From contig OW121855.1 in assembly GCA_933228895.1 (NCBI GenBank), forward strand, positions 39,074,698 through 39,138,697: a DNA stretch of 64,000 nucleotides, given 5' to 3'. The DNA comes from Platycnemis pennipes (lineage: Eukaryota > Arthropoda > Insecta > Odonata > Platycnemididae). Each line of letters begins with the position of its first letter. Within the stretch, counting starts at the first letter, position 1. The notes under the pieces are model-generated. The model did no database searches and had not been told where the DNA came from. It saw nothing but the letters and a program-made list of their open reading frames with translations. Both the position numbers and the translations under genes were made by a program. Shown piece after piece: positions 24,723 through 64,000 of this stretch.

Positions 24723-27700
24723 CAGGCTTGCCACTGGGTCACTAAAGTCACTAAAAGTCACTATTTTTAGCTGGATCACTATTTTGTCACTATTTCCGAA
24801 AAAAGGTCACTAAAGTCACTTTTTTTTAAAGGAAAAATGAAAAACCCTCAAAAGGTGGTATTTTTGTCGCTATACTGGCTTTTCGTTGGTGTACAACGAA
24901 ACCACAAACAACGCACACCAGAAGGAACTGCAGACTGCTGTAAGGTATTGGTCAAACAGCTCGGACTGTGTCACTGTTGAGCACCTACAATTATATTTTA
25001 TCGGCTTTGCTACAGCTAATGACATTTACAAAAAGCTAAACTCTGCAATGGAGAATTCATCTCTTTCTATGAGTAATTTGCTTATGTTCGGAAGCGACGG
25101 TCCAAATGTCAACAAGAGTGTTCAAACTAAAATGAATGCTGCCATGCTTCTTGCTAAGAAGACTCCCCTCATCAACATCTGCTTCTGCAACATTTATATA
25201 GTCCACAACGCCTTTCAGAAGGGCCTGGAGGTTTTGGGGGAAGATGCCTCTGACTTGTTATTTTATATGAATAAATTTTTTTGCTATTATCCAAGTCGAT
25301 GGGAAGAGTTTTGCAGGATTCTCTCCTCCCCTCAATTTTGTCTTCCTCAGAAGCATTTTATCAAGCACATCCCTAGTAGGTGGCTTACCCTTGGACCCGC
25401 AGCAGAGAGGATGCTGGAGCTGTTAGATCCTACCCGGGAGTATTTTCTCAAGTTCCCGCTAGCCAAAAAGAACTCCAAGCTACACCAGACCAGATCCTAC
25501 AGCAATGTCACCAATCTCTTGAAAAAGAGCACCATGAAGGCTGAACTCATGTTCGTAGTTTCTAGTTCCAGCATATTTACAGAGTTGACGGAAACATTTC
25601 AAAAGCAAGAGCCTCTTGTGCATTTACTTTACCCTGTTCTCAAGAAACTTGTCACAACATTGATTGGAAGATCATGCAAGGACACAATTCTTTCGTACAG
25701 CGATGTTTTTGAAACTTCCAACCTTCTTCCTCCAGAGAAAGTAAACTTGAGTGATGCCATCAAAGAAGAGCTTCACAGCATAAAAGATGAACTGAAGAGA
25801 ACGTTGTTCCTAAAGCATGCACAGATGCATTACATTGCAGTATGCAAGCACATGCTTCAAAACTCTTCCCTTGAGAATAGCCTCTTGCGTTATTTGTAGT
25901 GTCTTCATCCTGAAGAAAGGATGAAGCCTTGTAGTGAGGATTGGATAGTGTGTGCTGCTAAGTTTCTGCCATGGGCCGTTGAGACTCAGCTTCTCCATGA
26001 TGAGTGGAAGCTTATCCAGCTAGAGAAGGATGGAGATGAAGAATACATACGTATTGATGCTTACTGGGCAAGGTTCTTTTCCATGCACAATCCTGTTGGT
26101 GGGTCCAAGTATCCAACTGCGTCCAAAGTTGTCAAAGCATTATTAACTTTGTCCCATGGCAATGTGCCCGTAGAACGGAAGTTTTCAGATTCCGCAAATA
26201 CACTTAGATGTGATCGCTCACACATGATTGAGAGGACACTTCAAAATGTGAAAGACCTGCTGCGGAGGTATAATAATATGCTCTACGCCACCCCAGTAAC
26301 ACGGGATCTCCTTAGCCTGGCACGTGTTGCTCATGGAAACTATGAAAATTTTATAGAAGATGAAAGACAGAAGAAGGAAGAAGGTGAAAGGTTACTAGAA
26401 GAGGAACGAAAGGAAGCTGAGGTGGAAAGTCTGAGGAAGATGAACAAACAACAGAAGAACATACAAAAAGAGGAGAAAAAGTTGATAGAGCTGAAAAAGG
26501 TAGAATATGAGAGGATGAGAATGGCTGATAAACTCCGGAAGGAAACTAGTGCTCAACCAGGAAAGGCAATCGAATCCAAAAACATGGACGAAATTGCCCT
26601 AGCGCAGGTAATGCTCAAAGGAGTCACTGAGCTAAACCAAGAAGAAGGAAAGAAGAGAGAGGAAGTGAAGGCAGTCCAAAAATCTGTACAAAAGAAAGTC
26701 CACTATGTTGGACTACGTGAACAAGAAAACTAAAACTGGTAACTAGGGTGTGTTTCTATCCGCGAGTGTGTACCCTAGGGCTCTAAACTTTCCTGCTCTT
26801 ATGTGCTCTTCACACTTTCATGCACTTTTTCTTCACTTGCACCATTGCCAGTCAGCAGCAGTTCGGACAATTATAAAAAGTTGAGTGTTGCATTTCGTCA
26901 CTGAGGATAGCCAGTACACTCATGGTATTTTCTGTTACAGATTCTAAAACATAATTAATGTGAAGCATGGACGATAGAGATTTTCACGTAGCATTGCAGC
27001 ACATAATGGTGTTAATCCTATCAGCAAGGTAACGAAGAATATCAGCGGTGTTGTCATTGTTCCACAGAAGAATGGTTAGCTATCTGCTATGCCCCAAAAT
27101 GATGATTATGTATATCATTTTAGAGTACTTATTGGGGAAAACATCACAATAATCTATGTTGCTAATTCTATTTTTAGCAGTCACGTGTGAGATATTGCAT
27201 TCCTCATCGGCCAGTGAAATATTCAGAATTATTCTTCTTTCGGTGGATGAATTTAATAATTTTATCATATGTCCCTAGAATGGTAAAATAAATTCTATAA
27301 GCATCATGGTATTCTTCATTGCTTGGGTTATAAGGAACATACTACTATACCTAACAGGAATCATGCCTTAACACGCTGCCATCGTTTGATTAAACAGACT
27401 CATGGAATACTTAAGCAAAGGCAGATTATCGTACAAAATTTTCATGGCTTAAAATAATTATTGAAAAAAGAAATGTTTAATTAGCTCGACTTGTACAGGA
27501 GTGTTAAATTTAACAGGTCCCACATGGCATCTAGCTTCAACATTAAGTGGCGTGTAAAATATGTAAAATTTATGAATAAACATTCATTTATGAATAAATT
27601 ATGAATGCCTCCTTTAGCTTACCATAAGCTAAAGAAGGCATTGCTACGGCCCATGTGCACTTTCACCCTTGCTAACGGATTGGAATCGTACTTACCTGCG

Positions 27701-42600: not shown

Positions 42601-45600
42601 GTAAACAGTATGAAATTTCACAATGCACAAATGATGGCGAGGTGGCATAGTTGGAGAGGTTCGAAAGGTACTGAAAGTGCATGATCTGTCAAAAGCTTGG
42701 AGGTCTACATCCAACAGAAGAAGACGGCTGGTAATTGGCTGCGTATGAATCATATGCAGCCGATTGCTCGAGGGCAGCTGTCACTCTACTTGAGTCACAC
42801 CGAGCCCTCCTACGTGGCCGTGTCCCTCTTCACACGGGGCCTCCATGAGGTGCTCCTTTGTTTGGGATTAGCATTTCCAAGAAATCAATTTAGGACACCC
42901 TTTTGTTTATTTGACCTCCGCAAGTTGTGTTCTCTGTAGACTGCTGCATACAAATCATAGGCAACCGCTTGCTCTAGGATCCTACGTGCGTCTGGCCAAG
43001 GTGCTCTTTTGTTTGGGATTAGCATTTCTAAGAATGTATTCCAGGACAATCTTTTATTCCTCCACATGTGCATTTTTGTATCTTCACTGGTTTGACCATT
43101 TTTGCAGTCTTCTTTTACCCAGCTATTCATAAACGGTATTTTAGATGAAAGAACTTTCATTTTTGAGAGATGGGTCAGAAAACCCATGGCGATGGTGTCT
43201 GTATAAGAGAAAAATTGTGCCCAACAAGGTGTCTGTGTCTGTGAGAGGGAGTGTCCCTATACTAGAGGTTCGATCCTTATACAAATACATATACTTGTGC
43301 CGGGGAATTGGAAACTGTCCTTAAGTCAGATGTGTCCGTAAGTTAGAGGTGTCCGTGAACAGAGGTTTCACTGTATATGTTATTCAATGAAATTTAATAC
43401 AAATCTCTGAATATGAAAGACTATAGATTCAGATTCTGTTGAAATAAAAGTTTCAGATGCAGACCTTACCTCACATCTACTCACCAAGTTCAACAAATAG
43501 CTATGAAAGACAATGGAGATAGGGCATGGAGTTGGCTTTAAACAATGTAGAGAAAGGAATGTAAAAAAACAATAGCTGCATTTTGTACCTAATACTGCTA
43601 TGGTCAGAAATCAAGTATATGTGTGTACTTAAATGTCTTAAAAGAACCAAATCAAGTATCAAAATGCTGTCAGATAGAAATATGTTTTTGTGTATTCATC
43701 TCAGGATACCAAAGAAAAACTTAGACAAAAAGTTGCTTTGAAGAGAGATATGCTGAATTGTTCTATCTGTGGTTTTCAATTCTGTAGGTACATGTAGTTA
43801 GAGACTACCTACCTTCAGACCTAGTGTATAACCAGAAATTAGATGCAAGGGTACCTCACCTTAACAAAACACTCAAGTAGGAGCTAGATTGTCTATGAAA
43901 AATATCTTCCATTGCTGGGAATTCAGGCCCTTGAAGTGAGAGGCCATTGCTCTAACCACCACAGCAACTTGACTCCTGAATTGTTCATTTACTTCAACTG
44001 TGGTATATGTATTGTGGAATGATAATATACCCTTAATATCAAGTGCAGAATTGTTCAAGATAGGGTGTTTATGTAGAAGATTCAACCCTGGTGTTTGAAG
44101 GATTTATGATCAGTGAAATGGAAGCCATTGAAGTCTGGTGTTAGCCCCCCTGTGGGTAGGGGGATTGAGAATACTCCTGCAGTATCCTGGCTTTTCATAA
44201 CTATAAGGGCGGGGAGGCAACCCTGAAAACAAGCCATCGAGCCAGCATCCATACAGTCTTGTGGGTCAACTGGCTGTGTGCGACCATACCAGCTGGCCTA
44301 CCCACATGTTTGCCGTGTGTGGAGACCGGTAAGGAGGAGAAGGGGATACTGGAGGGTGAGGTCCACGGTTCTCAGCATGGTGTCAGATGCCTGGTATGGA
44401 CAATAGGCCGATACTCCTCTTTGGCCCTAGATTCTCTGTAAATGGGTGGCTGGGAGCTAGCCACTTCCGGTCAATCAGCTTCCGTGGTTTGACTTGGCTT
44501 CAGAAAGTATTCATACGGTTTCAGAAAGTTTACAGTGGCGAGTGCCAGGGAGTGGAGGTCTGCCTAGGGTGGTTGGAGATGTATGGGTTTGGTGTCCCTT
44601 TGCATCAAAGCTCTAACCCGAAACAGACTACCACTTCATGGGTACTGTATCCCTCGGGTAGCCCTGAGGAATGCACCAGTTAGCAGTGAGACATCCCAAA
44701 TCTGTGGCTCCATGGTGGGTGGGGAGCTAGGGTGGTCCAAAAAAACTTTTTTTTTGAAAATTTAAAGTGCGGATGCATTTTCGGGTGCAATTTTATGAAA
44801 AAAAACACCTCACAAAAATTCAGTTCCATCGCACAATATTTGACCCTGCCGAATCGCGTTTAAAAATTTTTGCTCGGATGTAGACACATTTGCCTACCTT
44901 ACAGGGGAGTTTCTACTATTTTTCGAGATTCTACCGCAGAAATAAGAGGTTACCCGAAAGAATCTTATCTTATCTTATCTGTGACGATAACGGTTTTTAT
45001 TTCGAATGAGTTTCTTAAATTTAAATGCGTCAATTTAACATATATTGACTAAGGTTCACATTATCTTTACATTTTCCTTAACCTTTTTTCTTCCGACCTT
45101 ATCGAAAATTTGCCTGTTTCTGTGCCACAAGCAGCAAGAGCCGTCTCTCACACCCATCTTTAGTGAGTTTTTCTTCAAAAGATAATCCTTGATATGTGAC
45201 ACGCCCCTTTCGGCAGTGTCATTAACAGCATTACCTAATGTGTTTGATTATATTGAAACCTTTCATCCTGTAGCCATTCTTCAGGGTCCTTTGACAAGAA
45301 GCCTTGGTCAATGCCCGTAATGTCGAAGAATCGTCGAGAATTACTGGACACAAAGTCACTCAGTTCCAGGTCCTTAATACAATGACTGGGAGGAAATTGC
45401 GCCCGGGGGCTGCAAACATCCAACCCTCCCTTTCCAAAAGAGCTAACCATCGCCCTCTTATCAGCTAAGGAAACCTTGCGGTCAAACAAAGATAAGCACA
45501 CTAATATTTCTGATAATTAGCACGAATAGTTGTAGAATTTGTTGAAAGCTGCTAGGTAGTGTTTGTCTTTGTGGCTGGCCAGGGTTTTCAGAGCTCGAGA

Positions 45601-48600
45601 TCACGCGCTGGTGCACTAGATGCAACCGGACATGTGTACCAGGAATTAATATACACGGAAGCTACAAAGCTCAAATTTAATGTTCATCGAAGATGAAAAT
45701 AGATTTTATAACGTGGGGTAGTTTCTCAACTTGAGTTGATTGCTGCAAAACATAATGATTTCATCTGCGTCTCGGACCTTCCGCAAACTACCTCGTGTTG
45801 TTGCAGCAGTGCGGTAATGCCCTGCAAGTATAATGAACATAAAGTTTTGTTTAATGCATGGCGTCATGTAAGTTCCAGAATGTGTGGTAACGTATTAGTT
45901 TGCGACATACCTTAGTCCAATGTTCTCCAATGATATTGTGGGCAATCAACAAATGGTGAAGTCGGCTTCTTCGAAACACCAATTAATTAATCAAACACTG
46001 CATCGAGGACAAGTTCAAGCATATGATGCCTGCAAGCCAGTTCCAGCAGCTCTTTCCCAAAGTTCTGTTGAATAAGAACACAGGATCCATTTACTCGTCC
46101 ACTATTTACGTTTGTGGTGTTGAAGATAAGGCCTATGACTCCTTCCTGAAGTTCCCAACTAGTCAAAAGTTGAACAACTGCAGTAGCTTCCTGAATCCCA
46201 GTGCCCTATTTGAACTCCGGAACGCCAAGAAGCTGCTCAACCTCTTCTTCAGATACTAAAATTGGCATACGATCAGTATTGGCTTCTGCATATAAAAGAT
46301 GGATTTAATATCCAATACATGGTCGAAAATGCCCACAGACTATGCAGGAGACTGTTAATGAGCAAGAGAAAAGAAAAATAAATTACGATAAATTTCTTTT
46401 CTGCTGGACAGTAGCTTTCCATCCCAATGGACGGCCAACGGAACGTCCGGATCAATCTCTTGCTTTATAAGTAGGGCAATTTCTTCTCTACATTCTGGCC
46501 GTTTTCTTTACAGTTGTGAACAGGAAGCAACTATTTGTACCCCTTGTTCCTCAAATCCCAACGATTTCACAGTGGCCCGATATACTGCTTTTATCAACCG
46601 TGTCTCACCGTGTGCCTGGCGATGCCTTTGAAATTAGCGGTGCCAGGCGTAGAGTGTCGCCTTGTGAAGAAACTCTTAAGAAGTTCTTTGGTAATTGGTA
46701 GTTTCCCATTCCCCGTCAGGTTTTCATCAAAGCAGCCACCAACAAGCCACACATTCGCTTTTCCCCGTGTAATACGCACATTACTCTTCTTAACCATTCC
46801 AACGTAAAATCACACTACCTTGTGGAAAAATAATTCACAAACACAGCTGTCTGACTCAAAAATGGCGTTCACTAATTCACCACCGCTGTTACCGCTTGCC
46901 TTCCACCATAGTCACCCGTACCGGAAGATCCGCGCAACAATACAGTCGTTATCTTGCACTTTTGTTACCGTCTTGCGCCCTTATGGGACAGTGATGAAGT
47001 CTTACATCATTTCAGGTCAATGACGCAATCTCGCATTATTTTGGGGCATGATGCCATCTTGTCCTACTGATGCAAGGACGGAGTTTACTTAGTCGCCAAA
47101 TGATAGCATTATCGCTTTGAACGTTAATTCTGGATTTCATCCTGTTATTGATGAATATAAGCGAAATATATCACGTGGTAGAAGGTTTTTCGTCCCAACA
47201 TGTGGAAACTACTATCTACTTACGATATATCTACTATTTGTCTTGGTTTTCTCATATAATCTTAGGACGCAAACGGAATCCCCTGTGGGGTAGGCAAACT
47301 GACCTACGTAAAAGCTGGAAATTTTAAAACGCGATTCGGCAGGGGCAAATATTGTACGATGATACTGATACTTTGTGAGGTGTTTTGTTTCATAAAATTG
47401 CACCCGAAAATGCATCCGCACTTCCATCTTTCAAAAAAAGATTTTTTTTGGGCCACCCTAGTGGGGAGCCCAGGGGAAGAAGCTTTCAAAAGGGATGGAT
47501 GAAAATAATCTTCCACCATGTAAAAGACCCCACGCAGACATGGGTGTGGGAGATGTTTTCAAAGGTAGTAAAAAATACCATGCGATGCAATGTCAACAGA
47601 GGGTTTGACACTTAAACATTTTCACTTTTCCTGGTTAAGAAAATACATACTATCAGCAACAGTACCGGGTGATGTTAAGTCTAAGATTAAGATATCAAAA
47701 ACTAAGAGGTGGCCCTCTGCTTATCAAAACGGCAAAAATTATGCAGAGTGAAAGATTGCTTAAAACAAAAATGTTGCACAGTAAATTCTAGACTTTTTAA
47801 ATTACTATTTTGGGAAGAGTTAAGACTTTTTCATGGTCTCAAATCATCTCATGCTGCCCTCGAGAGTTTGCCATTGGTATGTGAACTGTACTTTTTATAC
47901 AAATTTAAATTTTGCATCATTCAAGCCAGGGCATTGATTGTAGTGTCAATATAAAAGTTCAGGATACATTTACTTTATTCCATCGACCTCTGAATTTACA
48001 GTTTTAATAAAAAGTTAAGCAAAAGTAAGGCCATCAAAATCTGTGAATTTGAACTCAGACTCTACAAGAAATGTTTTAAAGTAGTTGATGCGTCATTCAA
48101 AAGATATATCAGCAATGGCTCACAAATGTTTCTGATTTATAGCATTTTTTGAAGAGCTACACTGAGCTACACTGCAGTATTTCACAAATACTTAATAGGT
48201 AATTAATCATTTTTAGCCTTCATTTTTCTTTTATTTGGTAATGCTTTTTTATAACTCAAAACTGGGAAATACATACACAGTATTTCAAGATACTTACTTG
48301 TAAAAAATCCAAAATTTCCTTTGTTTTTTTGTATCTCTTTTGTACACCAGATAGGAATGGAAAAATACGACCAAAGGTTGGAAATGCAAATTCTAGTTTT
48401 CCCCCAAGTTCAGTTTCTGCAATATTGTCCTTAATGAAACGAAGGAGTTTGCTGAGATAAGGATCAGAAAAATTGAACCTTATTCCTGCTAAAATATGCC
48501 ATATTATATTTATATTTGCTGGTCCCAGGATATCCTGGACAACAATCTGGAATCAAAATAAAATTTCACCAGTAATTTTCCCTCCTCAAAATAACTAGTT

Positions 48601-51600
48601 ACGGTTTAGTGAGTAAATAATAGTTGTATCTATATTTTATATGGTGCATATATCTAAATCTTACTTAATATCTTATATGTATACTTACTTATATATCTTA
48701 CTTAACTTTTTACCATAAGCAGAGTAACTTATTATTATTAGCTTTACACCAGAATTTTTTGCGGTTATGGAGCACTCATATTTTATTTTAAGCAACCAAA
48801 TAATACAATTGATGTAGCAGGTGCTAATTTTCTGTCTTGAGTAAGTATATATTTAAGAAAAAGCAATACACAATATTGCCATACCTTTAGAACTGAGACT
48901 TAATCATAAAGTTTGCTATTCTAAATTTCACTTTCCCAAAAAACATCCTCCTTTTGCCTTCTATATAATGGCATGCACAGTGGCTTTTGGGGTATTGGTG
49001 AATCGATTGCCATCAGAATGTTGTCCATCATTGGAGACCGATGTGTGGAATGTTGGGTCCGTGATCTAAGCCGTGCCATCCACCTGTACTGAACGCTCAT
49101 TCTCTTCTATCCTCCCTAGCTAGAAGTAATGTGTATAACTCTCTCTTGGCTATTCAAGATGCGATTGGTTTAACTCTTGATTCTGAATAAATTCTGTCAT
49201 TTGCACGAGCCTTTTGCTATATTACTTGTTCCCGACACCAAGAGCAAGAACCCACAATTATGTATGCAGGTTCGAGCCCCCGCAATAGTAAGCGGTAGCT
49301 GAATGCCTACAAATTTCATGGCCTAGGCATTCAAATCATTATTATGGCTTTTCTTCACTTGAAGCAAATTCCCCTTGGACTTATTATATTAAATATATGA
49401 GTAAACATTAACAAACTTAAATGACATAGTGGAAACTGAAGATTCTTAACAGCTTCTAAAGCCTCTATTTCTTATTGAGCCCCAAATGCTTATGTACTTA
49501 TAATGCTTATATACATATATAAGAAAAACTATAAAAAGAAGACGAGACAACGTAATGGGCAATATTTTAAGACACGATGGCCTGATGAAGACAATCGTTG
49601 AAGGAAAAGTGAATGGGAAGAATGGAAAAGGCAGGCCTCGTATGAGTTAATGTATAAAACAGGTCGTGAATGATGTGAAAGTGAGGAATTACGTTAATAT
49701 GATTCGGTTGGCCGATAGAAGAATCAAATGGAGGGCTGCGTCAAACCAAGGATTGTTGAACCATGATGATGATGATCCTGAAGTATGTTGAGGACTCATA
49801 ATGATTTGGTGTATTCTTTAGATAGCATCATGAAGTTATGATATACCTACTAGAACTTTTTTTGGTCCTAGTAAACGAATTCCACGTTAAGGTGATATCC
49901 TGAGTATGATTTGTATGCAGTGGAAGCTTCAAACTCTTAATGAAAGCAAACAGAAACTATGTAAAACTTTTATTTTTTGTTAGAAGAGCATTTCTATTTT
50001 TTTATTGTAAAACATAGTTATGAAATTAATTTCCACCAAAATGTAATGATTCTGACTGCCATGCTATTTGAGACACAATTTTGTTATTTATATTATAATT
50101 AATGTTGGAGGATGACTACATTGCCTTCGTGATTTTGAATAGATTGTCGCATAAGCTCTTTCCCATTAGGGAGAAGAATCAATGTTGACGTACTTAATAG
50201 ATTCACACAGTTTTTGTTTTTGCACCAAGTATACCATAATGAATGGCCTCTTAGTCTTTATAATGAGGCATTTTTAGTAATTTTTCACTATTTTGATATT
50301 GTCGCATAAGCTCTTTCCCATTAGGGAGAAGAATCAATGTTGACGTACTAAATAGATTCACACAGTTTTTGTTTTTGCACCAAGTATACCATAATGAATG
50401 GCCTCTTAGTCTTTGTAATGCGGCATTTTTAGTAATTTTTCACTATTTTTGATAGTTTATGTACAAAGAGGTATAAATTGATATTTTTGGTTTTATATGT
50501 AGCTATAAACTATATAGTGTATAAGCTATAGGTTCAAATTAAATGCTAATAATATTCTCATTACTCACTGGTTGGGACCATTCTCCTGGATTTTTGCCTT
50601 CAAGGCTCTTATCTATCTCAGCAAATACTGATTCTATTTCTTCAATTGTTATACTTTCCATGCTTGATTTTCCAAATCCAAAATCACGCAGATGACGGAG
50701 AGTAAACCTCCTTTGTTCTTTCCATCTTTCTCCAGATGTAAACAGAATGCCTGAAGATATAAATGCACATATTTTGGAGTCTGATTAGGTTTCAAAAAGA
50801 TTCATTCTTGAATGTTGAAGTTCTAAATATCATTTTTGGTTCTTTAAATCCCTAAAGATTGAGTAACTGCAGTAAGCATGCTTGTCATGGTGGCTTAGTT
50901 TCCAAATGAGGTAATTACAGCTGTGCAAATATATAGTGGTAGCTGGATGTGGACACAGGACACAAACCAAGGATTCTTCAGTGAAAGCAAATAATTATGT
51001 TTGTTTGTTTATTTCTGGCCTGAACTGAATGTGCACCCTACGTTCAGATTACCTTTTTCCTATTTCATATTTATTTGCATGAAATGCCTTAGAAGGTTAT
51101 TCATGCAATCCCACTCGATTATACTCTGGCAAAAGCAATAAAAACAGTACACAATTTATTAGTGACTATATATTCAGTAGCTGTGAGTTGTGTGAAAAAA
51201 AACCATGTTATTAAGGTGCTTGTGTATTACAAAGGTGTTGTTTACTAGGAAGGAAGGTTCATCTCCTCACATAATTTTTATCATTGACAATAAATGGAAC
51301 AGAGACAATGAATATCAGGTAAAATATGCTTACCATTGACCTCTTTTCTTATTCTGTGTATTGTTAACCTAGGTCTCCCTGCCAGGTCATCACGGAATGA
51401 AAGTTCCTTGATTGCCTCCAAACCAGAGACAAGGACTACAGGAGTTGAACCCATGAAGAAGCCAACTACATCACCATAAACAGCTTTCATTACAGTGGTT
51501 GATTGGTACAAATATGGACCCCATTTGCGAAGGTAATAAAGACTTCCAAATATTGGCCACTTTGGTGGACCTATAAAAGGTTATATTTTTGATAAAAACT

Positions 51601-56243: not shown

Positions 56244-57089
56244 TCAGGTGGGTGGGTCGAGGGGGGTAGAGGGATGGGGGGTGGACGGACATGTCATTGA
56301 AAAATATTTGTGAAGCGTGGGCCTCCACGTGTGGCTTATTTGAAGGCCACCATCTCTGTTGAAATTTTCTCTGTTCTTTATTATTTCAATAGCTTCACGG
56401 TATAGCCTGGGTTTGAATTTGTTGACCTTCGCGATGACCTTAGTGTTTTCGAAGTCAATCTCATGCCCCAGAGCTGCATGTTCTGCCACTGCTGACTTCG
56501 ATGTGTGTCCCAGTCGAGTGGCTCGTCGGTGTTCTTCCAGCCGGGTTTTGACGCTGCGTCCTGTCTCCCCGATGTATTTCTTTGCACATGTTCCGCAGGG
56601 GATTTCATAGACTCCCTCAATTTGCAGCGGAGTCCTATCTTTCACATTTCTCAAACAGGATTTTATCTGTCGGTGCGGCCGGAAAGTGGTCTTGATATCA
56701 TGCCTTCTGAGAACATTCCCTATTCTATCCGTCACACCCTTAATGTAGGGAAGGCAGGCTCTCTTCGGGGTGGTGGTGTCGTCATTTCTCGTCGGTAACG
56801 ATTCGGCAGAGTTCCGGTTGGCCTTGTCCTTGATTTTTCGGAAAGTTCGGGAGATGGCTCCTTCGTCATATCCATTAAGGAGTAAAACGACTTCTAAATT
56901 TCGTTTTTCATTTGGAAAATTTCTCTTGTCGCTTATCCGTATGGACCGTTGTATTAGACTGTGCATTACACCATTTATCTGGGCCGGGTGATGGTGTGAT
57001 GTCTCCACAAAATGGATGGACTCCATGATGGACTCCACAAAAGACCTAAGTTCCAGAGAAAAATGCCAGGCATCACTGAAGAACGTCAA
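56244..57089 (-). pseudogene. Penelope-like protein C-terminus with GIY-YIG endonuclease
   Basis: The open frame has no stops for 281 codons. Upstream part: AQINGVMHSLIQRSIRISDK and VVLLLNGYDEGAISRTF (RT thumb-like). Linker: ACLPYIKGVTDRIGNVLRRH. Nuclease: GVYEIPCGTCAKKYIGETGR with GVY/YIG tyrosines and a CxxC pair, then SVKTRLEEHR (catalytic Arg), KSAVAEHAALGHEIDFENTK and YREAIEI (catalytic Glu). All nuclease residues are intact. The N-terminal reverse transcriptase is absent, so it is a partial gene. The stated start is the frame limit, not a true start codon. Confidence 0.85.
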
Positions 57090-63191: not shown

Positions 63192-64000
63192 TCAATGTCC
63201 CTGAACAGTGAGAGGTCTAGGAGAGATGAACGGGGGCATATAACAAATCATTAAGGATTCACCCTTGGGGCCAACGGTTTTCATAATCTCTAGCTGTTCT
63301 AGAGCATCCCGGCGGAGGCCTTTCTTTTCCACATGCAGAATTGTAGGGGTTAAGTCACTCACGTGTCTTTTTTCCAAGAGGTGTTTGGCGAAATGGGAGG
63401 TGTCGTTTGAATTTTTGAAACAAGCGTTATGTTCCTTTACTCTCTGTTTGATTTGCCGTCCTGTTTGACCGATATATACGCATTCGCATTCAAGCTGGTA
63501 CACTCCGCTCTTTTCTAATAAAGGGATTTTATCCTTAGTTTTGGAAAGAAGATTCTGCAAGTTAGCTTTGTTGTAGAACGCTGGTTTTATTTTGTGTTTA
63601 GGCAGGACTTTCGTCACTGTATGGGATAACTGGCCGAGATAACTTATTCTCTTCCACTTAGCATCCGTATCACTTGTTGGGGAAGAGCTACCATAGATGG
63701 AGTTTATGGCTATCTTGTTGAGTTTTTTTTGGTACAATTTCTCGATTAGCTGTGGGGGATATCTGTTATTATTAGCTATGTGTTTAATAGTTGCAAGTTC
63801 TTTTTGGGTGGGGATATCCGTTATTATTAGCTATGTGTTTAATAGTTGCAAGTTCTTTTTGGGTGCTGTTATGTGACATGGGTATAGTTACCAGGCAGTT
63901 AATCATGGAATGAAAGGCAGCATGTTTTTGGGAAATGTGGTGTCTTGATTTGGCGTGAATTATTTGGTCAGTGTATGTGTCCTTCCTGAAAATCGAAAAT
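63192..64000 (-). pseudogene. Penelope-like protein, C-terminal part, frame broken by a 55-bp duplication
   Basis: From the right edge the frame reads SRHHISQKHAAFHSMINCLV and SHNSTQKELATIKHIANNN, is shifted by a 55-bp tandem duplication (63766-63875), and resumes RYPPQLIEKLYQKKLNKIAI. It then continues openly to the stop at 63192. The linker has YLGQLSHTVTKVLPKHKIKP. The GIY-YIG nuclease has GVYQLECECVYIGQTGRQIK (3 residues shorter between GVY and YIG than copy 1, with a C-x-C in place of CxxC), KQRVKEH (Arg) and RRDALEQLEI (Glu). Apart from the duplication the frame is intact, so the copy is fairly young. Confidence 0.8.
63766..63875. repeat. 55-bp tandem duplication
   Basis: TTATTATTAGCTATGTGTTT begins at 63766 and again at 63821. 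The following 45 bases are identical and the junction block is 'ggggatatc[t/c]g'. Because 55 is not a multiple of three, it breaks the Penelope reading frame. Confidence 0.93.

Follow-up and report, generated by a model that had tools for sequence, protein, structure and literature searches.

Which kind of transposon left the 2733-bp element that occupies positions 44728–47460 of a 64,000-nt stretch of the Platycnemis pennipes genome (the window, in whose coordinates all element positions are given), and which enzyme moved it? An earlier reading of the letters alone (the sequence-only reading) had seen in this element a decayed gene of a widespread, unannotated invertebrate protein family, and had proposed that the family is the transposase of a cut-and-paste superfamily, possibly allied to Mutator or Rehavkus. 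Our data make it probable that a cut-and-paste transposon of the hAT type, most likely one belonging to the published hATm group, left this copy and that the copy is non-autonomous. The element is real and recently amplified, and it is largely ordinary.

Ends, Copies and Target Sites of the Element

The tips of the element are TAGGGTGG and CCACCCTA, and an exact 9-bp target site duplication (TSD), GTGGGGAGC, stands on both sides. On re-reading, the perfect duplication, the matching tips and the boundaries reported earlier were all exact. The earlier figure of ~200 bp for the terminal inverted repeats (TIRs) was a fair one, given that BLAST aligned them over 181 bp at 84%; self-comparison gave 89% complementarity over 143 nt and 70% in a 50-nt stretch further in.

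A nucleotide search of the genome that the window comes from (1.79 Gb in 88 contigs; 40 of 218 candidates scored) revealed at least 132 stretches matching the element. We examined 39 copies, namely the window copy and 38 fetched copies or fragments; both ends were found in 30, and one end was missing in nine. The two-ended copies had an exact 9-bp TSD in 23 cases, one mismatch in five, two mismatches in one and eight in another; in 28/30 the 9-bp TSD thus has no more than one mismatch. Reading the TSD as 8 or 10 bp did not fit, except at one homopolymer site (L014), where 8 bp with one mismatch also passes. As a control, the left flank of one copy was paired with the right flank of another, and only 2/870 such pairs matched exactly, both accounted for by copies L012 and L031, which have one target 9-mer in common. 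The TSDs are not due to chance. The termini read TAGGGTG/CACCCTA in ~26 of the 30 two-ended copies, including that of the window, and the remainder depart by single bases.

Over the 28 good sites the target consensus was ATGNNNCAT, with frequencies of 0.68 for A at position 1, 0.70 for T at position 2 and 0.61 for G at position 3; this consensus was counted on both strands and is symmetric by construction. T at 2 and A at 8 occurred together in 13/28 sites. When flanks were joined with one TSD copy removed, they matched 38 other listed repeat copies at 76–82% identity, and all 38 matches span the junction. These repeat copies are paralogous empty sites. L012 and L031, one a young and one an older copy, lie at the same 9-bp site. 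Their flanks are 81% (129 bp) and 86% (299 bp) alike, a pattern suggestive of two separate insertions into the same position of a dispersed repeat.

Related Lineages in the Same Genome

A protein search of the genome returned at least 138 matches to the family (67 of 1973 candidates scored), and 30 loci were cut out and scanned for TAGGG-like ends plus an 8- or 9-bp TSD. An element with an exact TSD was found at nine of them, with family reading frames inside every one. Six of these elements are 3829–3836 bp long and have TIRs of 485–492 bp at 96–99%, with 9-bp TSDs in five and an 8-bp TSD in one. The other three (2342–3304 bp) have weak or short TIRs by BLAST, and all have 8-bp TSDs, giving 9 bp in five and 8 bp in four of the nine. 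Their termini are all of the TAGGGTG/CACCCTA type, a pattern for such ends being what they were found with. Transposases of these two lineages are 40–41% identical to each other and 31–35% identical to P0001, the relative that stands for the window lineage.

True junctions matched at the nine loci, with 19 end pairs tested; with shifted flanks there were matches in 0/19 at shifts of 3 to 20, 0/17 at 40 and 1/16 at 80, and one of 6000 shuffled loci matched. At the other 21 of the 30 loci, in stretches that reach just 1.5 kb past the match, an end pair with a TSD was absent; some of these loci are copies already counted, and in others the ends may be decayed. TSD length varies by lineage (L055–L072 compared with the window lineage), being 9 bp in two, with one 8-bp case, and 8 bp in the third.

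The proposal that this widespread family is a cut-and-paste transposase is supported by these elements: in the window copy and in nine elements of two further lineages, its gene is enclosed by TAGGGTG-type ends and a TSD. The gene could instead be a host gene or passenger carried by the TIRs of an unrelated mover, a view to which its being dead in all 17 copies of the window's subfamily (below) lends some support. Matching tips and TSDs, however, flank the family in three lineages with transposases 31–41% identical, and its modelled fold is a transposase fold, so that this explanation is very improbable.

The Transposase Family and Its Fold

A query joined from consensus pieces matched 460 proteins (E ≤ 1e-3). 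Among the best 120 of these 460, most are 600–790 aa, the sources include damselfly, thrips, sea louse, aphid, moth and limpet, and many members sit on contigs of ~3 kb. A query from the second lineage of the same genome gave 492 protein matches (best 120 of 492 listed). Seven Frankliniella fusca members (P0002–P0008) bear unrelated product names, such as Replicase polyprotein 1ab and Homoserine kinase.

The best fold match of the family model was Hermes, a hAT transposase, over 359 residues, at 9% identity in the structural alignment. The model has the fold expected of a hAT, an RNase H-like DDE domain with a helical insertion, and the family has the hAT residue order D, D, CxxH, E. In a viral fold library the sole match under 1e-3 was a Pandoravirus hAT protein; a search of solved structures by sequence gave two matches, both unrelated and with E above 5. 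Residues D293, D358, C387, H390 and E689 of P0092 are kept in 95, 97, 97, 97 and 95 of the 97 rows of alignment A2, the exceptions being one N and one gap at the first Asp and two gaps at the Glu. Scans of IMG/VR with A2 and A4 gave 3 and 37 pattern stretches, none of which was confirmed.

Comparison by hhalign with 43 canonical hAT proteins, gathered using a hAT from the same genome, yielded a single segment (probability 12.6%, E 0.0023) that pairs FDTT with the second Asp of hATs and CRHH with their CxxH motif. With larger alignments on both sides (178 and 99 sequences) this segment recurred at 12.9%, and aligning family and canonical hATs globally gave nothing beyond one aligned column. The second Asp and CxxH are placed by alignment with hATs, and the first Asp and the Glu only by ranges collinear with Hermes; conservation and these collinear ranges indicate that the catalytic Glu is likely that of NDTAERGV. 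The D of FDTT, earlier named as a candidate catalytic residue, does align with the second catalytic Asp of hATs. The HH of LACRHH had been named likewise, but the last His of CRHH corresponds to the hAT CxxH signature and not to a metal-binding acid.

No Pfam transposase domain was found in five window pieces, in ten relatives or in 63 relatives; none of these relatives had any credible Pfam domain, and the 22 Pfam families matched by the 63 members at E ≤ 0.1 include no hAT or Mutator/MULE domain. PF27041 (precomputed) occurs in one of the 120 listed members (P0066), compared with 120/120 listed canonical hATs.

Long TIRs and 9-bp TSDs are typical for Mutator and Rehavkus, and on these features the element resembles them. 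The suggested affinity was not supported, as the best fold match is a hAT transposase, no Mutator domain is among the 22 Pfam families matched by the 63 members at E ≤ 0.1, and the TSDs of relatives sharing these tips are 8 bp long; we give a Mutator- or Rehavkus-like element scarcely any credence. This candidate was disfavoured on fold, and the fold matches listed include no eukaryotic Mutator transposase.

A Young Subfamily with a Dead Gene

The window copy is one of 17 that make up a young subfamily (group A); 16 of these differ by 0.6–1.3% from their consensus and one by 5.2%. In the older group B (16 copies), 14 differ by 4–7% and two by 18–20%, and paired match stretches place ~230 bp of extra sequence at element position 943. 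Both consensuses have the gene in pieces that lie in different frames; introns may account for some of the shifts, yet stops occur in matched stretches of copies. Residues 64–246 of P0001, the nearest relative, have no match in the window copy, nor do most copies of either group match ~residues 65–245. A tblastn search for an internal deletion in group A gave no clean placement, and groups A and B are both without the same N-terminal stretch of P0001.

The decayed minus-strand gene described by the sequence-only reading is present with its named motifs, spread over different frames, except that FDTT is FNTT in the window itself. The second catalytic position is Asn in 17/17 group-A copies compared with Asp in 97/97 aligned relatives. 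Asn is also present in L042, counted apart, and Asp in the six older copies whose motif can be read. The window copy is non-autonomous: its own gene is broken and its second catalytic Asp is lost, and the burst of 17 sampled copies therefore moved in trans. The young subfamily spread while its transposase gene was dead, and we infer that it had help from an active relative. We hypothesize that an autonomous relative elsewhere supplied a transposase whose RNase H-like DDE domain is split by a helical insertion. This enzyme would have bound the TAGGGTG ends, excised the element and inserted it at ATGNNNCAT-like sites with 9-bp staggered cuts.

Features of the element and its decayed gene, in window coordinates
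Feature	Position	Strand	Basis
Left 9-bp TSD, GTGGGGAGC	44719..44727		Read from sequence; two-ended copy comparison
Left TIR, ~143 bp at 89%, then weaker to ~181 bp	44728..44908	+	Self-comparison, BLAST
Decayed hATm-like transposase gene, pieces in several frames	45056..46809	-	Open reading frames (ORFs), copy consensus, relatives' alignment
Glu of NDTAERGV, candidate third catalytic acid	45209..45211	-	ORF; A2 conservation
CRHH, equivalent of the hAT CxxH signature	46023..46034	-	ORF; profile alignment with hATs
Codon of second catalytic Asp, Asn in the window (FNTT)	46119..46121	-	ORF; A2 conservation
VHWDGK motif, candidate first catalytic Asp (codon 46421-46423)	46415..46432	-	Sequence reading; A2 conservation
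Right TIR	47279..47460	-	Self-comparison, BLAST
Right 9-bp TSD, GTGGGGAGC	47461..47469		Read from sequence; two-ended copy comparison

Other Features of the Window

Two open frames (337 and 270 aa) lie side by side at 24886–26733 (plus strand); the second has a weak match to the hAT dimerisation domain PF05699 (E 0.0072, below cut-off), and they are possibly another hAT-like gene. Frames at 56244–57089 and 63192–63737 (both minus strand) match GIY-YIG with E 0.002 and 0.0002, narrowly missing the Pfam cut-off, and are perhaps Penelope-like elements, a name given by eye. A 155-bp unit is present as two tandem copies with 97% matches at 50143–50454.

Probable Assignment to hATm and Comparison with Known Systems

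hATm has been proposed as the fourth family of hATs; it forms a supported clade, with 28 members having 8- or 9-bp TSDs and more than 74 Repbase entries (PMC6004678). Its termini are 5'-TAGGGTG and CACCCTA-3', and two hATm-6 elements have TIRs of 417 and 575 bp (PMC6004678). The sequence-only reading had treated this kind of element as unnamed, whereas hATm as published has the same ends and the same 8- and 9-bp TSDs. A genome paper on Caligus rogercresseyi lists hAT-hATm among its repeats, and that species also has a member of the window's transposase family (P0025), a coincidence that is no more than suggestive.

Several observations weigh against the assignment. PF05699, reported for hATm-6 though outside the three grounds that PMC6004678 states for hATm, was found in 0/63 members at E ≤ 0.1. 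A canonical hAT of the same genome matches this domain at 3.5e-20; the C-terminal region is nonetheless present in the family's model, aligned to Hermes as far as residue 609. In sequence the family resembles canonical hATs only weakly, TIRs of the third lineage are weak or short by BLAST, and the copies that were read include no intact autonomous partner with matching TIRs.

The missing Pfam hAT domain and the weak profile similarity would also suit a separate, new superfamily that is sister to hAT, shares its catalytic fold and has its own 8- and 9-bp TSDs and TAGGGTG ends, with no more than those ends in common with hATm. Such a superfamily would be without the classical dimerisation domain, would switch between 8- and 9-bp staggers by lineage in one genome, and would include a young subfamily that spread with a dead active site. 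We regard it as unlikely, as the fold is closest to Hermes, the ends and TSDs fit the published description of hATm, and PF27041 is found in P0066 as in all listed canonical hATs. Novelty in the sense of the sequence-only reading, which a match to a named superfamily would undo, fails unless the family is such a sister of hAT.

With the element read as a hAT of probable hATm type, many invertebrate proteins that were unlabelled, or in some cases bore unrelated product names, are assigned to a hAT-type transposase, and the family now has a confident structural model. The data also document 8- and 9-bp staggers in one transposase family within one genome. Their value is useful annotation rather than a new kind of biology.

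Among known systems, the ZBED-like canonical hATs of the same genome (L077) share the second Asp and CxxH in the profile comparison, but have a BED finger and PF05699, neither of which was found in the 63 members of the window's family. Hermes shares the modelled fold and the order D, D, CxxH, E; it differs in its low structural-alignment identity and in its TIRs, which are short. Its TSD is 8 bp, and its target preference for T at base 2 and A at base 7 (PMC8721813) is reminiscent of T at 2 and A at 8 in the element's 9-bp sites. A Hydra hATm likewise has an 8-bp TSD (PMC8721813), and hATs with TSDs of 5–7 bp are named (PMC12730594). The hATm group differs in that PF05699, reported for hATm-6, is undetected in the 63 members of the window's family. 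Its likeness to the element comprises TAGGGTG/CACCCTA ends, TSDs of 8 or 9 bp, TIRs of hundreds of bp in some elements, and occurrence in insects.
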